Positions 6,798 to 47,142 of a stretch of DNA of 49,649 nt are shown here, one piece after another (the first letter of the stretch is position 1; every line of letters begins with the position of its first letter). This stretch comes from a virus: positions 1-49,649 of IMG/VR virus record IMGVR_UViG_3300040856_000860. One strand, given 5' to 3'. The position numbers were made by a program, and so were the translations under genes. The notes under the pieces were generated by a model. The model was given only the letters and a program-made list of their open reading frames with translations. It ran no database searches and had not been told where the DNA came from.

Positions 6798-7390
6798 CTT
6801 ATCCTATACTCCCGTAATCAATTGTATTTGCTCCTACTGCTCCAGTAATCAAGCCATAATCTATCTCTGTTGCTTGGGATATAACCCCGCTCGTAATATT
6901 AATACCTGAACCAGCTGTAAACGAACTTCTCGCTCGAGCTGTAGTAAAATATAAATTAGTTCCACCCTCAACTAGATCGTCTGTGTCAAAAGGTTCTAGT
7001 GTAATATTAGTTGTTTGACTTCCACCATCGGAGGTATTTATGGTTAATAAACTATTAGATGTATTATACGTAACTGACTGAACACCAGCTACAGCAGTGT
7101 TTGAAATATTTGTAATTCGACCATCGGCACCAACTGTAATAACAGGAACTTGAGATGCTGAACCAAAAGTTCCAGTAGGGACACCTGTTGAAGCTAAATT
7201 ATTAAAATTATTAATTACAGCATCAAAATTTGTGCCAGCTGAAGTTGATATCCTAAGTGTGCTGTTTGCTGATGTCCATGTAAAGTTAGCTACACCAGCT
7301 ACAGCAGTGTTTGAAATATTTGTAATTCGGCCATCGGCGCCTACAGTAATAATAGGAATTAACGAAGCAGAACCAAACGTTCCCGTAGCT
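5994..7390 (-). repeat. Shared fibre repeat units, three copies across two genes
   Basis: A unit of about 95 bases encoding TGTFGSASxxPxITVGADGR and then ITNISNTxVAGV occurs at about 5994-6092 in the 1026-residue fibre. It occurs again at about 7081-7180 and 7291-7390 in the neighbouring 266-residue fibre. The copies are similar in DNA as well as protein (shared core TGTTTGAAATATTTGTAAT on the plus strand), pointing to recent duplication or gene conversion between adjacent fibre genes. Confidence 0.8.
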
Positions 7391-7599
7391 ACACCGGTTG
7401 CAGCAAGAGCATCTTCGTTTGCCCACTCGATAGCGGTTCCAGCATCGTTTACTTTTAAAACTTGATTTGCTGTTCCAAGTGTAATTAATCCTGTACCACC
7501 ATGTTGGTATCCAACAGCGTCGCCTGATTGAAATTCAGACAAACCAATAGCGTTGTTTGAATTATCATAAACTGTTCTAATAGGTACTTTAATTGCCAT
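6799..7599 (-). CDS. Short fibre protein with repeated beta units
   Basis: A 266-residue protein without a recognised enzymatic domain. It starts MAIKVPIRTVYDNSNNAIGL, contains a phrase common in fibre N-terminal regions (GYQHGGTGLITLGTANQVLK), then two tandem copies of the repeat TGTFGSAS...ITVGADGRITNISNT. It ends with DDLVEGGTNLYFTTARARSSF, typical of Gly/Thr-rich fibre shafts. It is separated by one base from the 1026-residue fibre and ten bases from the collagen-like gene, so the three are probably co-translated parts of one fibre system. Lacking an S74 domain, it may form a connector segment. Confidence 0.75.
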   Translation of the reverse strand: MAIKVPIRTVYDNSNNAIGLSEFQSGDAVGYQHGGTGLITLGTANQVLKVNDAGTAIEWANEDALAATGVATGTFGSASLIPIITVGADGRITNISNTAVAGVANFTWTSANSTLRISTSAGTNFDAVINNFNNLASTGVPTGTFGSASQVPVITVGADGRITNISNTAVAGVQSVTYNTSNSLLTINTSDGGSQTTNITLEPFDTDDLVEGGTNLYFTTARARSSFTAGSGINITSGVISQATEIDYGLITGAVGANTIDYGSIG

Positions 7600-7608
7600 A
7601 TCTAAACC

Positions 7609-9174
7609 TTAAAATAAAAATTGGGCTGCTGCAGATTCTCTATCAATTTGATTACCACTATTTAGGAAGAAATTTGTAAACACTTTTACGTTTGTTTCTG
7701 TGCGGAACGCAAAGGTAATTGCTGGAACTTTTAAACCGCTAGCTTGAGTAAATAGTGGTACTAATCTTTCTGCAGATCCTGATTCACCAATGGTTGCAAT
7801 TGTTTTTTGTCGACCTACTACTTCCACTCTTGAGTTTGCGGGAAGTACGGCGCCTGTACCAGATATAGCAATTTGACCTGTACCATCTGATGAAATAGTA
7901 GCGCCGCCCAGATTAATCGTTGTACCAGAAAGATATATATCTCTCCATCTAAGATTGGCTGTACCAAGATCAAGATTATTGTTTGAAACAGGAACAATGC
8001 TTGTAGTAACTGAAGTTAAATCTGTACTTCCACCGCCTGCTGCTGTTGATGCAATAGTAATAGAAGAAGCGTTTTGAGTAAGTGTGATATTGTTGCCGGC
8101 AAGAATTGTTTTATTATTAGATACTTGCAAATATTGATCGAATCTAGGATTCGTATTTGCAATAAATGATTGAAAAGCTGTGTTGCTTACAAATGTTGCT
8201 TGGAGATATGTATTAGATACATCCCCGGTGCTACTACTCACACCAGAAATAGTGGCACCAACAAATTTACCAGTAGAAGAATTATATTGTAATACTTTAC
8301 CGTTTTGCTTAACAGAGTCTCTATCTACATCATCTAAAAACTCTAAACGTACTTCACCACCACCGGATGAGCTGCCACCTAGAGAAGCTCTTGTTATTGT
8401 TCTTCTAATATTATCTTGGAATTTTCTAGTTTCTTCTGATACCTTTTTTAGGTATGGTTCAATATCTGGCGATTCACCGTCTCTACCTGGATCACCTTTT
8501 ACACCTTGAGGGCCTTGGGGACCAATATCTCCTTTATCACCCTTTAGACCTGGTATACCCTGTAAACCGGTTTCACCGCGATCTCCTTTATCCCCTTTTA
8601 CACCTTGTTTGCCCTGCTCTCCCTGGGGACCAATAGGACCTTGTATACCTTGTATACCTTGATCACCTTTTAATCCTTGCGGTCCAGGTGCACTTTTTTC
8701 CCCTTTCGGTCCCCTGGGACCAGCGATACCTTGCTCTCCCTGAGGACCAATATCACCCTTATCACCTTTTAAACCTTGTGGCCCTATTGGTCCAATAGGC
8801 CCTTGTTCACCAATAATATTACCTACTGGAAATTGTACACCATCATCTCTATATAAAAATAAATGACCGTTATCATTCATCTGAGCTTCTACAATATTGC
8901 GCCCAGGGTCACCACGATCACCTTTTTCTCCTACAGGCCCGCGGGAACCCATAGGACCTATTTCACCTAGTAAACCACGTGGTCCAACTGGACCAGTTTC
9001 ACCTTGAGGTCCTTGAGGTCCTTGAGGCCCTTCAACAAGTATAGGATCAGGTACTTCAATTTTATTGAGTTCAGAGTGGAGCTCTTCTAGTAAAGCTGAT
9101 TTTACTTTACTACTTTCTTTTTTGAGAACTCCTAAAAGAGCTGCAAGAAGTTTAGCGTGTTCAACTTGATCCAT
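7609..9174 (-). CDS. Collagen-like fibre protein
   Basis: A 521-residue protein. Residues 1-45 are a charged helix (possible trimerisation or attachment). Two blocks of Gly-X-Y triplets follow (about 46-92 and 124-235), separated by a short globular insert containing [16 protein letters not shown]. The C-terminal ~270 residues are a beta-rich fibre region. Most prolines are in the X position (GPQ, GPR, GPI); only a few are in Y (GDP, GIP). Acid-base pairs such as GDKGD would stabilise a triple helix. There is one interruption of the triplet pattern near GEKSAPGPQ. It overlaps the end of gp20 by 14 bases. It is probably a trimeric rod anchored near the neck or baseplate; the exact site is not shown by sequence. 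Confidence 0.85.
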
Positions 9175-42996: not shown

Positions 42997-43710
42997 ATGA
43001 CTTTACCACAAATTGCAGTGCCTAAATTTAAATTAAAACTTCCTTCAAATGGAAAGGATATTTATTATAGACCTTTTCTAGTCAAAGAAGAAAAGACTCT
43101 TCTAATGGCTGTTGAAGGTGGAGAAGATACTGATATTACCGAATCAGTAATTAACATTATCGAAGCTTGTGTTGATTATGACGGTAATGTCAGAGAACTA
43201 CCATTCTTTGATATTGAATATATCTTTGTAAATCTAAGATCAAGATCTATTAATAATATTCTTAACTTAAAATTAAGACATGCATCTGGTAATAGCTGTC
43301 AACATATTACTGATTATGAACTTAATTTGGAAGATGTTAAAGTTGATATACCAAAAGACCATACTAAAAATATTCAATTAACAGATGATGTTGGTTTGGT
43401 GTTAAAATACCCATCACTTGAATCAGTAAATGTTGTTAGTGAGAGTATGAAATCGTCTAAAATCGATAATATTTTTAATACATTAGCTTCTCAAGTTGAA
43501 AGCGTGTATGATGCTGAAAATGTCTATGAAGATTTTACTCATGAAGAGATGGTTGATTATATCGGTAACTTAAATAAAGAACAATTCTTTAAGGTTGTAA
43601 ACTTTTTCGAGAAACTTCCAACTGTGTCTTATGATATTAAATACACTTGTAGTGAGTGTGGAGAAAATGAACATATACCGATGAAAGGACTTCAAAGTTT
43701 TTTTATGTAG
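42997..43710 (+). CDS. 26: Baseplate hub/tail assembly chaperone gp26, zero-frame product
   Basis: A 237-residue T4_baseplate family (gp26, Pfam PF12322) protein. The N-terminal half (KFKLKLPSNGKDIYYRPFLV, EAVINI-like helix, DIEYIFVNLRSRSINNILNL) is characteristic. Near the end is a probable small zinc site with Cys218, Cys221 and His226 (CSECGENEH), though only three ligands are evident. Ribosome site GAGGAC precedes the ATG. The frame ends at TAG just after a run of seven T that is a good -1 slippery site, so this may be the shorter of two products. Confidence 0.88.
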   Translation: MTLPQIAVPKFKLKLPSNGKDIYYRPFLVKEEKTLLMAVEGGEDTDITESVINIIEACVDYDGNVRELPFFDIEYIFVNLRSRSINNILNLKLRHASGNSCQHITDYELNLEDVKVDIPKDHTKNIQLTDDVGLVLKYPSLESVNVVSESMKSSKIDNIFNTLASQVESVYDAENVYEDFTHEEMVDYIGNLNKEQFFKVVNFFEKLPTVSYDIKYTCSECGENEHIPMKGLQSFFM

Positions 43711-43883
43711 CGCTAAGTCATAACAGCTTAGCAAATATGTACTATACAAATTTTGCATTAATGCAACATCATAAATATTCATTAACTGAACTTGAAGAAA
43801 TGATGCCTTTTGAACGTGATATCTATTTACAAATGCTTCAAAATCATATCAAAAAACTAGAAGAACAGAGATCAAATGGCTAA
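42997..43883 (+). CDS. Predicted -1 frameshift fusion of gp26 with downstream frame
   Basis: If ribosomes slip back one base at T_TTT_TTT (43698-43704), translation leaves the gp26 frame before its TAG and continues 59 codons to TAA at 43881-43883, giving about 295 residues. The added part reads YVALSHNSLANMYYTNFALM, then QHHKYSLTELEEMMPFERDI, and ends in a helix. The -1 frame is fully open from the slip site, and the new segment looks like a real, Tyr/Met-rich helical domain. Many long-tailed phages make tail assembly chaperones this way (lambda G/GT, P2 E/E+E'). An independent 48-residue product from an ATG at 43737 is the alternative. Confidence 0.7.
43698..43732 (+). promoter_or_regulatory. 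Programmed -1 frameshift site with downstream hairpin
   Basis: The slippery heptamer T_TTT_TTT in phase with gp26 is at 43698-43704. After a seven-base spacer, GCTAAG (43712-43717) pairs with CTTAGC (43727-43732) around a nine-base loop. The gp26 TAG stop is at 43708-43710, inside the spacer. Site, spacing and stem-loop match known bacterial and phage -1 signals. Confidence 0.72.
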
Positions 43884-46800
43884 CGTATTACCAGCAATAT
43901 CAACACAGGGCGAACCAATCGCTGACGTTTTTGTAGAACAAAGAGATATCCTTGTCCGTGTTGAAGGGGTGGTTGAGCGTTCTTTTTCTAAGTTAGATAT
44001 TATTGAAGATGTAATGAAGTCTACTCTTGATGTGCAAGAAGCGCAATCTAATGCGTTGAGACTTCAAGCAGAAAATGCAGAGTTTGCAGCAGATGAAGCA
44101 GCTAGAGAGGCAGCAAGACGAGCACAAATAGATCGCCAAGATAGTGCTCAAGCTACAGCTAAGCCAGCAGGTGACGCCAACGGTGGTTTAGGCAGCTTTG
44201 CTTCTGGTCTCGCTGGTGGATTAGCTGCTGGTGGTGTTGCTAGTACATTACGCTTATTAGCTGGTCGGTTAATAACCGGTGGTGGCTTAGCGGCTGTAGG
44301 GATATACTTTGGTGAAGAGATTGGTAAGTTTCTTTCCACAGAAGCAGATTCATTCTTAAATGATGTAGGTATTTCAGATCAAATAAAAGATAATATTACT
44401 ACCGCTTTAAGAGATAATACTGATGAAGCTCTTATTTTTGGTGGTATTTCAAAACTAATTTTTGGTAGAACACTACCTGGTATTATAGCAGGTTTTGTAC
44501 TTGGTAGTCTTGATATAGAGAAATTATTCTCGGATGATCCTGAAGTACGTAAAGAGTTTTATGATAATTTAGGCAATGAACTATCTTCTGGTTGGGATGA
44601 GTTGGTTAAGGATAGACCAGTATCTACTATATTAACAGGTGCTGGGGTAGGGGCTTTAGCGTTATTTACTAAAGGTCCTTTAGTTAAAAGAATTGCTGTA
44701 TCTCTGATTGGCGCATATGGTCTAAGTAATCTTCTTCCAGGTGATGAAGATATTGACAACCTTAATACAAAAATAACAAATCAAGTTGTTGATGAATTAA
44801 CCTTAATGGGGTTCGGTGAAGAAGGCGCTCAGACAGCTGTTGATATTGGTGGTGCTGCTATATCTGGTTTATCCGCAGGTTGGTTAGCCGGTTTAATTAA
44901 CAAACGATTAAAAATACCTGCTATGATAGCAGGCTTTATATGGGATTTTTATGATTTAAATAGAATCTTTACACCAGAAGGCAGAGAAAGCTTATTAGAT
45001 TCTGCCGAACAAACAGTAAGACGTATCCTTCAAGGCGAGGGAATGACTGATGATTATATCGATGCTGCTGTAGCTGGTTTAGGAATTGGCGGGACTTTAT
45101 TTGCGGCAGATAGAGCTAGAAGAAGATTTGGGAATCGACCTTCTGCAACAGGTGGAGCAGCTGCCCCTGAAGCTGTTGTTGAAGATAGAGCTCAACTTAG
45201 AAATAGAGTCACTGGCTACAGTGAATCTCAATTAGAACGCGCTGGTGTTAGACAAACATCACCAGGCTCCTTCCAAAGAATAGTAGATGGAAGACCGACT
45301 GGTTCATTTATGTCTTATGCAGATGTTGATGATCAAGTTAGACAGTCTAGAATTAGAAGTAAATTTCCTAGAATGTCAGGTAGAATGTTTGGTGCACTAC
45401 TAGGTGCTGGTCTTTCGGCTGCTGAGATATATTTAATTCTAGAAGATCCTAATACTACACCTCAAGAAAAAGCACAGCAAATGGGTGGAGTCGCAGTTGG
45501 TTTCTTAGGAGGCGCTGCTGTTGGGGCGTTAATAGGATTTGTCGCAAGCTGGTATACAGGTCCAGGTGCTATTGTTATTACCGGGCTAGCGTCACTAGCT
45601 GGTTATGCTTTCGGGGATTGGATGGCGACTGCTTTCTTCGAATGGATGCTAGAAGCGCGATCTGATTCAGAATTAGAAAACATGAATGGTCAAGCTACTG
45701 CTGGTATTGCCGGTATAAGCTCACAAGCTGATGTTGATGCTTATCTAAGAGAATTCGGTATTACTCCTACTACACCTTCTACACCAGTACAGGGTGGTAG
45801 GGGTCGAACAGTAGAAGCGCCAGGTGCAAGAGCGCTCGCAGGACAAATCGCTGGTGTACAAACTCAACTAGAGGCTGCTCAATCAGAGAGAGCAGAAGCA
45901 AGTAATAGAGCTGCAAGAAGAGATGCTAATCAAAATGTTATAAGATTAGAGAGAGCTTTAGAAGATCTCGAAGAGCAATTAGAAGAGTTAAATCAATCAT
46001 TTAAAAATAGTACAGCTACTCTATCAGATGCAAGTTTTAATAATGCCACGGGTGGTGCAAGGGTATACAACGCTGCTCTTGGTACAGGAATGAATACTGG
46101 TGCAAGAACAATGCAAGCAGCACTTACACCAAGCTTTGGTCAACCTAGATTGATGCGCGCATCGCTAAGCACCCAAGGATCTTCTACACCTTCTGAACAA
46201 TCGTTTCCTATTCCATTAACAGGTGGTGCATCGTCTAGAGGCGCTGAATCTTCTCTCGTATTTCAACCTGCATTCGGCAATGCATTAATGAGTATGTATA
46301 ATGACGCTCCAGATTATGTTCAGGACGGATTAAGGATTCTATCTGGTTATAGATCGCCAGAGATTCAAGAACAGTTATATGAGGACAAACTTCGCGAAGT
46401 AAGAGCAGCGCACCCTGATTGGAATGATACTCAGATAGAAAGAGAAGCTCGTAGGTGGGTTGCACCTCCAGGGCATTCAAGACATAATACTGGACAAGCG
46501 GTAGATTTATCATATGCTAATAATAGAGTGAAGCAATGGGTGCATGATAATGCTGGAAGATATGGTCTGCACTTCCCACTTGCTAATGAAGACTGGCATA
46601 TAGAGATGGCAGGTTTAGGGGGTAGTAGAGTGGCTATGATTGATACTCCTCCAGTATCCTTTGCTAATGGCGTACCTTCACAAACACCTGACAGACAAAT
46701 TGCAGAAGCACCTACAGCTAGAACACCGTTACCAAATATGCCCGGTGGAGATATAGAAGCTGGTCGATCTATGCTAGGTACTTTTAGTCAATCTATTCAA

Positions 46801-47142
46801 TCACTAGGCGGTTTTGGTTTCGATGCGTTGTTTGGTGAAGGAGCTTTCAGTCAAATTATTGGGTCTACAAACCCAGAACAAATGATTGCTAACAAGTTAG
46901 ATAGAGTATTTAAAAATGTAGGTGTGTCGCCTGAGGCTATTGAATTAAATAGAGGTTCTGAAACCGCTACTCAAGCAGCACCTATAGTTGTTAATGCTCC
47001 ACAGATTAATAATGATAACTCTGTACAAGCTAGTGGCGGGGGTGGTAGAGAAAGAGCATCACAACAAGTTGCTATAGCACCAGTTGGTGAACAATCTGCA
47101 ACATCTACTATGCGTGACTGGTCAGACGCGGTCTACTCATAG
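43876..47142 (+). CDS. Tape-measure/hub protein with M15 peptidase domain
   Basis: A 1088-residue tail protein. Residues 1-95 are a charged Ala-rich coiled coil; 105-165 and several later segments (about 225-290, 325-355, 505-555) are Gly/Ala-rich and hydrophobic, as in tape measures that cross the membrane. A second coiled coil lies at about 665-715. Residues ~795-912 are a peptidase M15 (D-Ala-D-Ala carboxypeptidase/VanY-like) domain: LSGYRSPEIQ, then GHSRHNTGQAVDLSY (His870, Asp877), and NEDWHIEM (Glu905, His908), the complete Zn and catalytic set. It probably cleaves peptidoglycan peptides during entry. It overlaps the frameshift product by eight bases. Confidence 0.85.
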   Translation: MANVLPAISTQGEPIADVFVEQRDILVRVEGVVERSFSKLDIIEDVMKSTLDVQEAQSNALRLQAENAEFAADEAAREAARRAQIDRQDSAQATAKPAGDANGGLGSFASGLAGGLAAGGVASTLRLLAGRLITGGGLAAVGIYFGEEIGKFLSTEADSFLNDVGISDQIKDNITTALRDNTDEALIFGGISKLIFGRTLPGIIAGFVLGSLDIEKLFSDDPEVRKEFYDNLGNELSSGWDELVKDRPVSTILTGAGVGALALFTKGPLVKRIAVSLIGAYGLSNLLPGDEDIDNLNTKITNQVVDELTLMGFGEEGAQTAVDIGGAAISGLSAGWLAGLINKRLKIPAMIAGFIWDFYDLNRIFTPEGRESLLDSAEQTVRRILQGEGMTDDYIDAAVAGLGIGGTLFAADRARRRFGNRPSATGGAAAPEAVVEDRAQLRNRVTGYSESQLERAGVRQTSPGSFQRIVDGRPTGSFMSYADVDDQVRQSRIRSKFPRMSGRMFGALLGAGLSAAEIYLILEDPNTTPQEKAQQMGGVAVGFLGGAAVGALIGFVASWYTGPGAIVITGLASLAGYAFGDWMATAFFEWMLEARSDSELENMNGQATAGIAGISSQADVDAYLREFGITPTTPSTPVQGGRGRTVEAPGARALAGQIAGVQTQLEAAQSERAEASNRAARRDANQNVIRLERALEDLEEQLEELNQSFKNSTATLSDASFNNATGGARVYNAALGTGMNTGARTMQAALTPSFGQPRLMRASLSTQGSSTPSEQSFPIPLTGGASSRGAESSLVFQPAFGNALMSMYNDAPDYVQDGLRILSGYRSPEIQEQLYEDKLREVRAAHPDWNDTQIEREARRWVAPPGHSRHNTGQAVDLSYANNRVKQWVHDNAGRYGLHFPLANEDWHIEMAGLGGSRVAMIDTPPVSFANGVPSQTPDRQIAEAPTARTPLPNMPGGDIEAGRSMLGTFSQSIQSLGGFGFDALFGEGAFSQIIGSTNPEQMIANKLDRVFKNVGVSPEAIELNRGSETATQAAPIVVNAPQINNDNSVQASGGGGRERASQQVAIAPVGEQSATSTMRDWSDAVYS

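Follow-up and report, generated by a model that had tools for sequence, protein, structure and literature searches.

In phage lambda, gpG and gpGT are the tail assembly chaperones, their coding region lies directly before the tape measure gene, and the slippery site is G_GGA_AAG. The tail assembly chaperones of T4-like phages were reportedly identified by Vladimirov, Gautam and Davidson (Virology, 2022), whose abstract is said to describe frameshifting as conserved in several T4-like groups and the T4 group as using genes 26 and 51. Where the PRFect paper cites this study, it is for T4-like phages in which separate genes for a short and a long chaperone take the place of frameshifting (PMC10885494); where the Adele paper cites it, it is for poly-T frameshift signals in the TAC-N genes of T4-like phages (PMC12846349). 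Going by these citing passages, the described chaperones belong to the same gp26/gp51 family as the locus studied here, with short and long forms that come from two genes in some T4-like phages, and with poly-T signals in others. Both gp26 and gp51 of T4 have been listed as hub assembly chaperones; assembly needs gp51, which is absent from the virion (PMC3004832). A comparable arrangement exists in Vandenendeviridae and Andersonviridae, whose TAC locus precedes the tape measure gene and has a conserved -1 frameshift at a T-rich motif towards the end of TAC-N; the differences are that the motif is GTTTTT and that the phage families are others (PMC12846349).

We analysed the corresponding locus in an uncultured, marine T4-like phage. 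The window is the whole 49,649-nucleotide stretch of IMG/VR record IMGVR_UViG_3300040856_000860. The first-pass annotation of this DNA suggested that gp26-type proteins of T4-like phages may use the lambda-like strategy and knew of no description of it for them. Frameshifting was supported by our analysis; the strategy itself is not new for T4-like phages, because the passages of PMC10885494 and PMC12846349 already cite Vladimirov et al. 2022 for it. What is added here is an uncultured member phage, two putative stimulators, a loss of the heptamer that goes with the two-gene layout, and a non-slippery junction in Ackermannviridae and some vibriophages. The features of the locus are as follows.

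42997..43710, plus strand: gp26-like zero-frame ORF, likely short tail assembly chaperone (TAC-N), 237 aa (PF12322, PHROG_150, AlphaFold2 model)
43684..43689, plus strand: Shine-Dalgarno-like element AAAGGA, 8 nt 5' of the heptamer, weak in the window phage (family-wide anti-Shine-Dalgarno peak)
43698..43704, plus strand: slippery heptamer T_TTT_TTT, in phase (T_TTT_TTN in 198/199 loci with a -1 extension)
43704..43883, plus strand: -1 frame extension, TAC-C domain, 59 aa plus stop (PHROG_634, 2.5e-24; alignment with T4 gp51)
43708..43710, plus strand: zero-frame stop TAG, one sense codon past the heptamer (same spacing in 130 of 164 distinct junctions)
43712..43732, plus strand: candidate stimulatory stem-loop, arms 43712-43718 and 43726-43732 (predicted stem and family-wide downstream folding)
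43876..47142, plus strand: 1088-aa ORF containing a VanY-type peptidase domain, probable tape measure (PHROG_16823, 1.5e-29; PF02557, 4e-14)

The gp26 ORF starts with ATG at 42997 and its 3' end reads CTT CAA AGT TTT TTT ATG TAG. Since the first T of the T7 run is the third base of AGT, the run is an X_XXY_YYZ heptamer in phase. After a -1 slip, the reading would continue as TAT GTA GCG and so on, giving the product FF-YVALSHNSLANMYYTNFALMQHHKYSLTELEEMMPFERDIYLQMLQNHIKKLEEQRSNG over 59 codons to the stop at 43881-43883, and the end of this frame overlaps the next ORF by eight bases. The heptamer, the 59-codon open frame and the eight-base overlap had all been claimed from the letters alone and are confirmed, as is the six-base-pair stem-loop behind a 7-nt spacer, which has 7 bp if the closing U-G is counted. 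Among the long ORFs of the window, this was the only in-phase T6N run with a -1 frame open for more than 21 codons; at the other runs the -1 frame was open for 21 codons at most.

The zero-frame product is a homologue of T4 gp26, with a match to PF12322 over the full domain (8.7e-57) and to positions 5-232 of the 282 in PHROG_150 (3.6e-61). The extension alone matched PHROG_634, which is named for a 'baseplate hub assembly catalyst' and corresponds to gp51 (2.5e-24), and also the C-terminal end of PHROG_150; it aligned with the C-terminus of T4 gp51. In T4, gp26 spans only the short part of PHROG_150 (positions 14-235 of 282), and gp51 spans positions 13-280 and matches PHROG_634 as well. By this coverage, T4 gp26 is the counterpart of the zero-frame product, and the frameshift product corresponds to a long form like gp51; by sequence, the two products share an N domain. 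The AlphaFold2 model of the window gp26 was confident (pLDDT 91.6). The PDB entry with the highest Foldseek probability was the HK97 tail assembly chaperone 2ob9 (0.80, with a non-significant E of 0.56), and none of the PDB structures matched the model significantly by E-value. Searching PDB sequences with profiles of gp26 and of the extension gave no meaningful match, and a Pfam search with both gave no match to a lambda-type chaperone family. Given the likeness to lambda, the role of T4 gp26 and gp51, the 2ob9 match and the nature of the next ORF, a chaperone role of the short and long forms is likely.

To describe the family, the joined protein was compared with annotated phages by tblastn. 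Matches were found in 929 records; in 790 of these, a single place accounted for 80% of the query or more. The full-length matches among those listed were split in two pieces. The matched phages included those of Synechococcus, Prochlorococcus, Sinorhizobium, Aeromonas and Methylophilales, and Ackermannviridae. At the DNA level, the top matches listed were only short ones, of about 67% identity, to cyanophages. We then compared 203 loci, some of which overlap, taken from isolates, IMG/VR contigs and the window; they were chosen by protein similarity and not by the heptamer. The extension lay in the -1 frame in 199 of them. The remaining four were T4 with its two genes, two contigs that end before the extension, and Vibrio phage K364, which is too diverged for the profile. 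An in-phase T_TTT_TTN preceded the stop in 198 of the 199 loci, the exception being Salmonella phage Det7. Among 164 distinct junctions, the stop followed one sense codon after the heptamer in 130. The -1 frame was open through and past the slip site with conserved protein sequence. A search of homologues for a slippery site and a -1 extension ending in a PFERDIYLQML-like segment, which had been put forward as a check, gave T_TTT_TTN in phase and an MxPFER-like segment. The slippery signal is kept in nearly all relatives examined outside the T4 and Ackermannviridae branches.

The deposited annotations offer another reading, in which a small gene ('gp51') that is started separately encodes the extension. 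A separate extension CDS is annotated in many records, for example P-RSM6 and phiM9, and most deposited genomes follow this scheme; the -1 frame of the window also contains an ATG at 43737. However, this ATG has no ribosome site (+1.0 kcal/mol), and the same is seen across the family: the first ATGs of the extensions had a mean Shine-Dalgarno energy of -0.11 kcal/mol, with 2% at or below -5, compared with a mean of -6.05 and 78% for gp26 starts. An independently started downstream gene with its own ribosome site had been named as an observation that would speak against frameshifting, and the extension starts turned out to have no such site. In addition, conservation of the -1 frame product extends to the residues that precede the ATG. 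Ahead of the conserved MxPFE motif, 19 of 133 representatives have no ATG, and six have no ATG, GTG or TTG. A separate gene would also leave the conserved heptamer unexplained. We therefore consider a separately started gene very improbable.

Even less probable, in our judgement, is that T_TTT_TTN is merely a conserved Phe-Phe in AT-rich genomes and that the long form is made in some other way, such as termination and re-initiation. In its favour, the proteins do conserve the Phe-Phe, and the -1 overlap persists in Ackermannviridae, which lack the heptamer. Against this stands the choice of codons, which we counted in 133 representatives no more than 80% identical over the junction. All 133 had a T at the end of the codon preceding the two heptamer codons (80.1 would be expected from the codon usage of each gene) and TTT as the first Phe codon (91.6 expected). 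The second codon was TTC in 76, TTT in 48, TTA in eight and TTG in one; because this codon varies while the preceding positions are invariant, the last base of the heptamer is free and the others are constrained. This synonymous constraint was confined to the heptamer positions. Elsewhere in the same genes, the heptamer occurred at 35 of 31574 codon positions, and only 18 of 148 other Phe-Phe pairs (12%) were slippery. Moreover, T4 gp26 retains the Phe-Phe in a non-slippery form. An error in sequencing or assembling the T run, with gp26 and the extension really in one frame, could be suspected since homopolymers are error-prone and the window is a metagenome contig, but its probability is negligible, and it is ruled out by independent isolates, as 198 other loci show the same -1 relation, among them genomes of isolates from numerous laboratories, and many loci carry T6C rather than T7.

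The phages that encode the two forms separately serve as a natural control. T4 and seven more Straboviridae, each of another genus, have separate genes 26 (short) and 51 (long), and T6N was absent from the last 20 codons of gp26 in all eight (T4 reads GAG TTC TTT). The gp51s of the seven relatives carry the C domain (6e-11 to 1e-18). In T4, gp26 aligns to the zero-frame product of the window, and gp51 aligns to the frameshift product over its whole length, C domain included; the difference is that the forms are in separate, divergently oriented genes and that gp26 has no slippery heptamer. The strategy that the first-pass annotation suggested for gp26-type proteins does not apply to T4 itself, which uses genes 26 and 51 and not a frameshift. 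T_TTT_TTC and a -1 extension after gp26 were found in the Straboviridae Aeromonas phages 65, AS-szw, AsFcp_4 and ZPAH1 and Vibrio phage VH7D, and also in Vibrio phage D479, whose record has no family label. In T4 (6803-8229), genes 26 and 51 resemble duplicated, divergently placed short and long forms of one ancestral gene.

A third arrangement was found in the Ackermannviridae Det7, SFP10, 0507-KN2-1 and phiD3 and in Vibrio phages K364 and D493, in which a -1 extension lies over the gp26 stop and no heptamer is present. These non-slippery junctions read GAR ATT TTC ATT TAA T.. or, in some, have a TAATG stop-start overlap. The next annotated structural gene in these loci is gp5-like and not a tape measure.

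We examined the sequences on both sides of the heptamer for stimulators. Across the family, anti-Shine-Dalgarno pairing peaked in a 9-nt stretch ending 6-7 nt before the heptamer (mean -6.3 vs. -2.6 kcal/mol elsewhere in the gene). Part of this peak is a conserved Glu-Gly. The Glu codon at -4 was GAG in 52 of 73 cases (71%), compared with 26% in the same genes (p 6e-16, a value that, like the folding value below, treats the representatives as independent although ancestry is common to them). The AAAGGA of the window is weak, at -5.3 kcal/mol, which is equalled by 15% of the other 21-mers of the gene. On the downstream side, the 72 nt 3' of the heptamer folded at -11.57 family-wide and at -7.89 in shuffles that were synonymous in the -1 frame (p 2e-15, with the same assumption of independence). 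The difference was smaller in a control region inside gp26 (-11.35 vs. -10.13). Taken by itself, the window showed no unusual stability in this 72-nt stretch (z = -0.67). All four close relatives compared retain the window stem; the three changes seen in it are one-sided, and none is compensatory. For downstream folding, the family-wide signal is the only persuasive one, and the window's own stem is unremarkable. Ribosomal protein S21 has been speculated to be a frameshifting helper in some pelagiphages (PMC8163748); an S21 gene was not present in the 49.6-kb record, which is possibly a fragment.

Given the conservation of the heptamer and of the -1 frame, the family-wide upstream and downstream signals, the extension without a start of its own and the loss of the heptamer in the two-gene phages, we are highly confident that this is a programmed -1 frameshift by which one gene would give a short and a long tail assembly chaperone, slippage being deduced from conservation. 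For most ribosomes, translation would end at the gp26 stop codon and yield the 237-aa short form (TAC-N). A smaller share would pause at T_TTT_TTT, aided upstream by the Shine-Dalgarno-like sequence, about 8 nt away, and downstream by folded RNA. The two Phe tRNAs would then slip back by one base, and reading of a further 59 codons in the -1 frame would lead to the long form (TAC-NC), of about 295 aa. The common N domain and the added C domain may help assemble the tape measure protein and the surrounding tail tube, as lambda gpG and gpGT do. From these data we infer that slippage occurs, at some rate, and that the products act as chaperones. Compared with lambda G/GT and related siphophage tail assembly chaperones (Xu, Hendrix and Duda 2004), the short form of the window is larger (237 aa). 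The slip site differs from the G_GGA_AAG of lambda.

The gene after the extension had been taken to be the tape measure gene. Its position and size fit; the PHROG_16823 tape measure match (1.5e-29) is limited to residues 796-963 of the 1088-aa ORF, which is the peptidase region, and the VanY domain PF02557 (4e-14) lies near residues 818-910. With its position, its length and a match confined to the peptidase region, the ORF is a probable tape measure. Its start codon lies inside the end of the -1 frame and has a weak ribosome site. Where the available sequence was long enough (119 representatives), the start of the next long ORF can lie before the end of the extension in 62 and within 30 nt after it in another 51. 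Such overlap or nearness would allow translational coupling to the tape measure gene. We regard it as a tentative and rather unlikely extension of the model that the frameshift is a full dnaX-like cassette, composed of an internal Shine-Dalgarno, a T6N heptamer and an RNA fold specific to the lineage, and that its long product also links translation to the tape measure gene. If such coupling were true, a single slip event would determine how much long chaperone is made relative to tape measure.

In annotated cyanophage-like records (L037, L209 and others), the extension is given as a free 'gp51' that starts 3' of the slip site, or it is omitted. The general idea of frameshifting in T4-like phages is already published, and the gain of the present analysis is in detail and breadth. 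The reading proposed here corrects the annotation in hundreds of T4-like genomes, in which the C-terminal domain of the long chaperone is shown as a free 'gp51' or is missing. The loci also provide a clean natural data set for how upstream Shine-Dalgarno-like sequences and downstream RNA folds tune -1 frameshifting. Finally, the comparison supports the view of T4 genes 26 and 51 as a split frameshifting gene, with the slippery site gone wherever the split was found.
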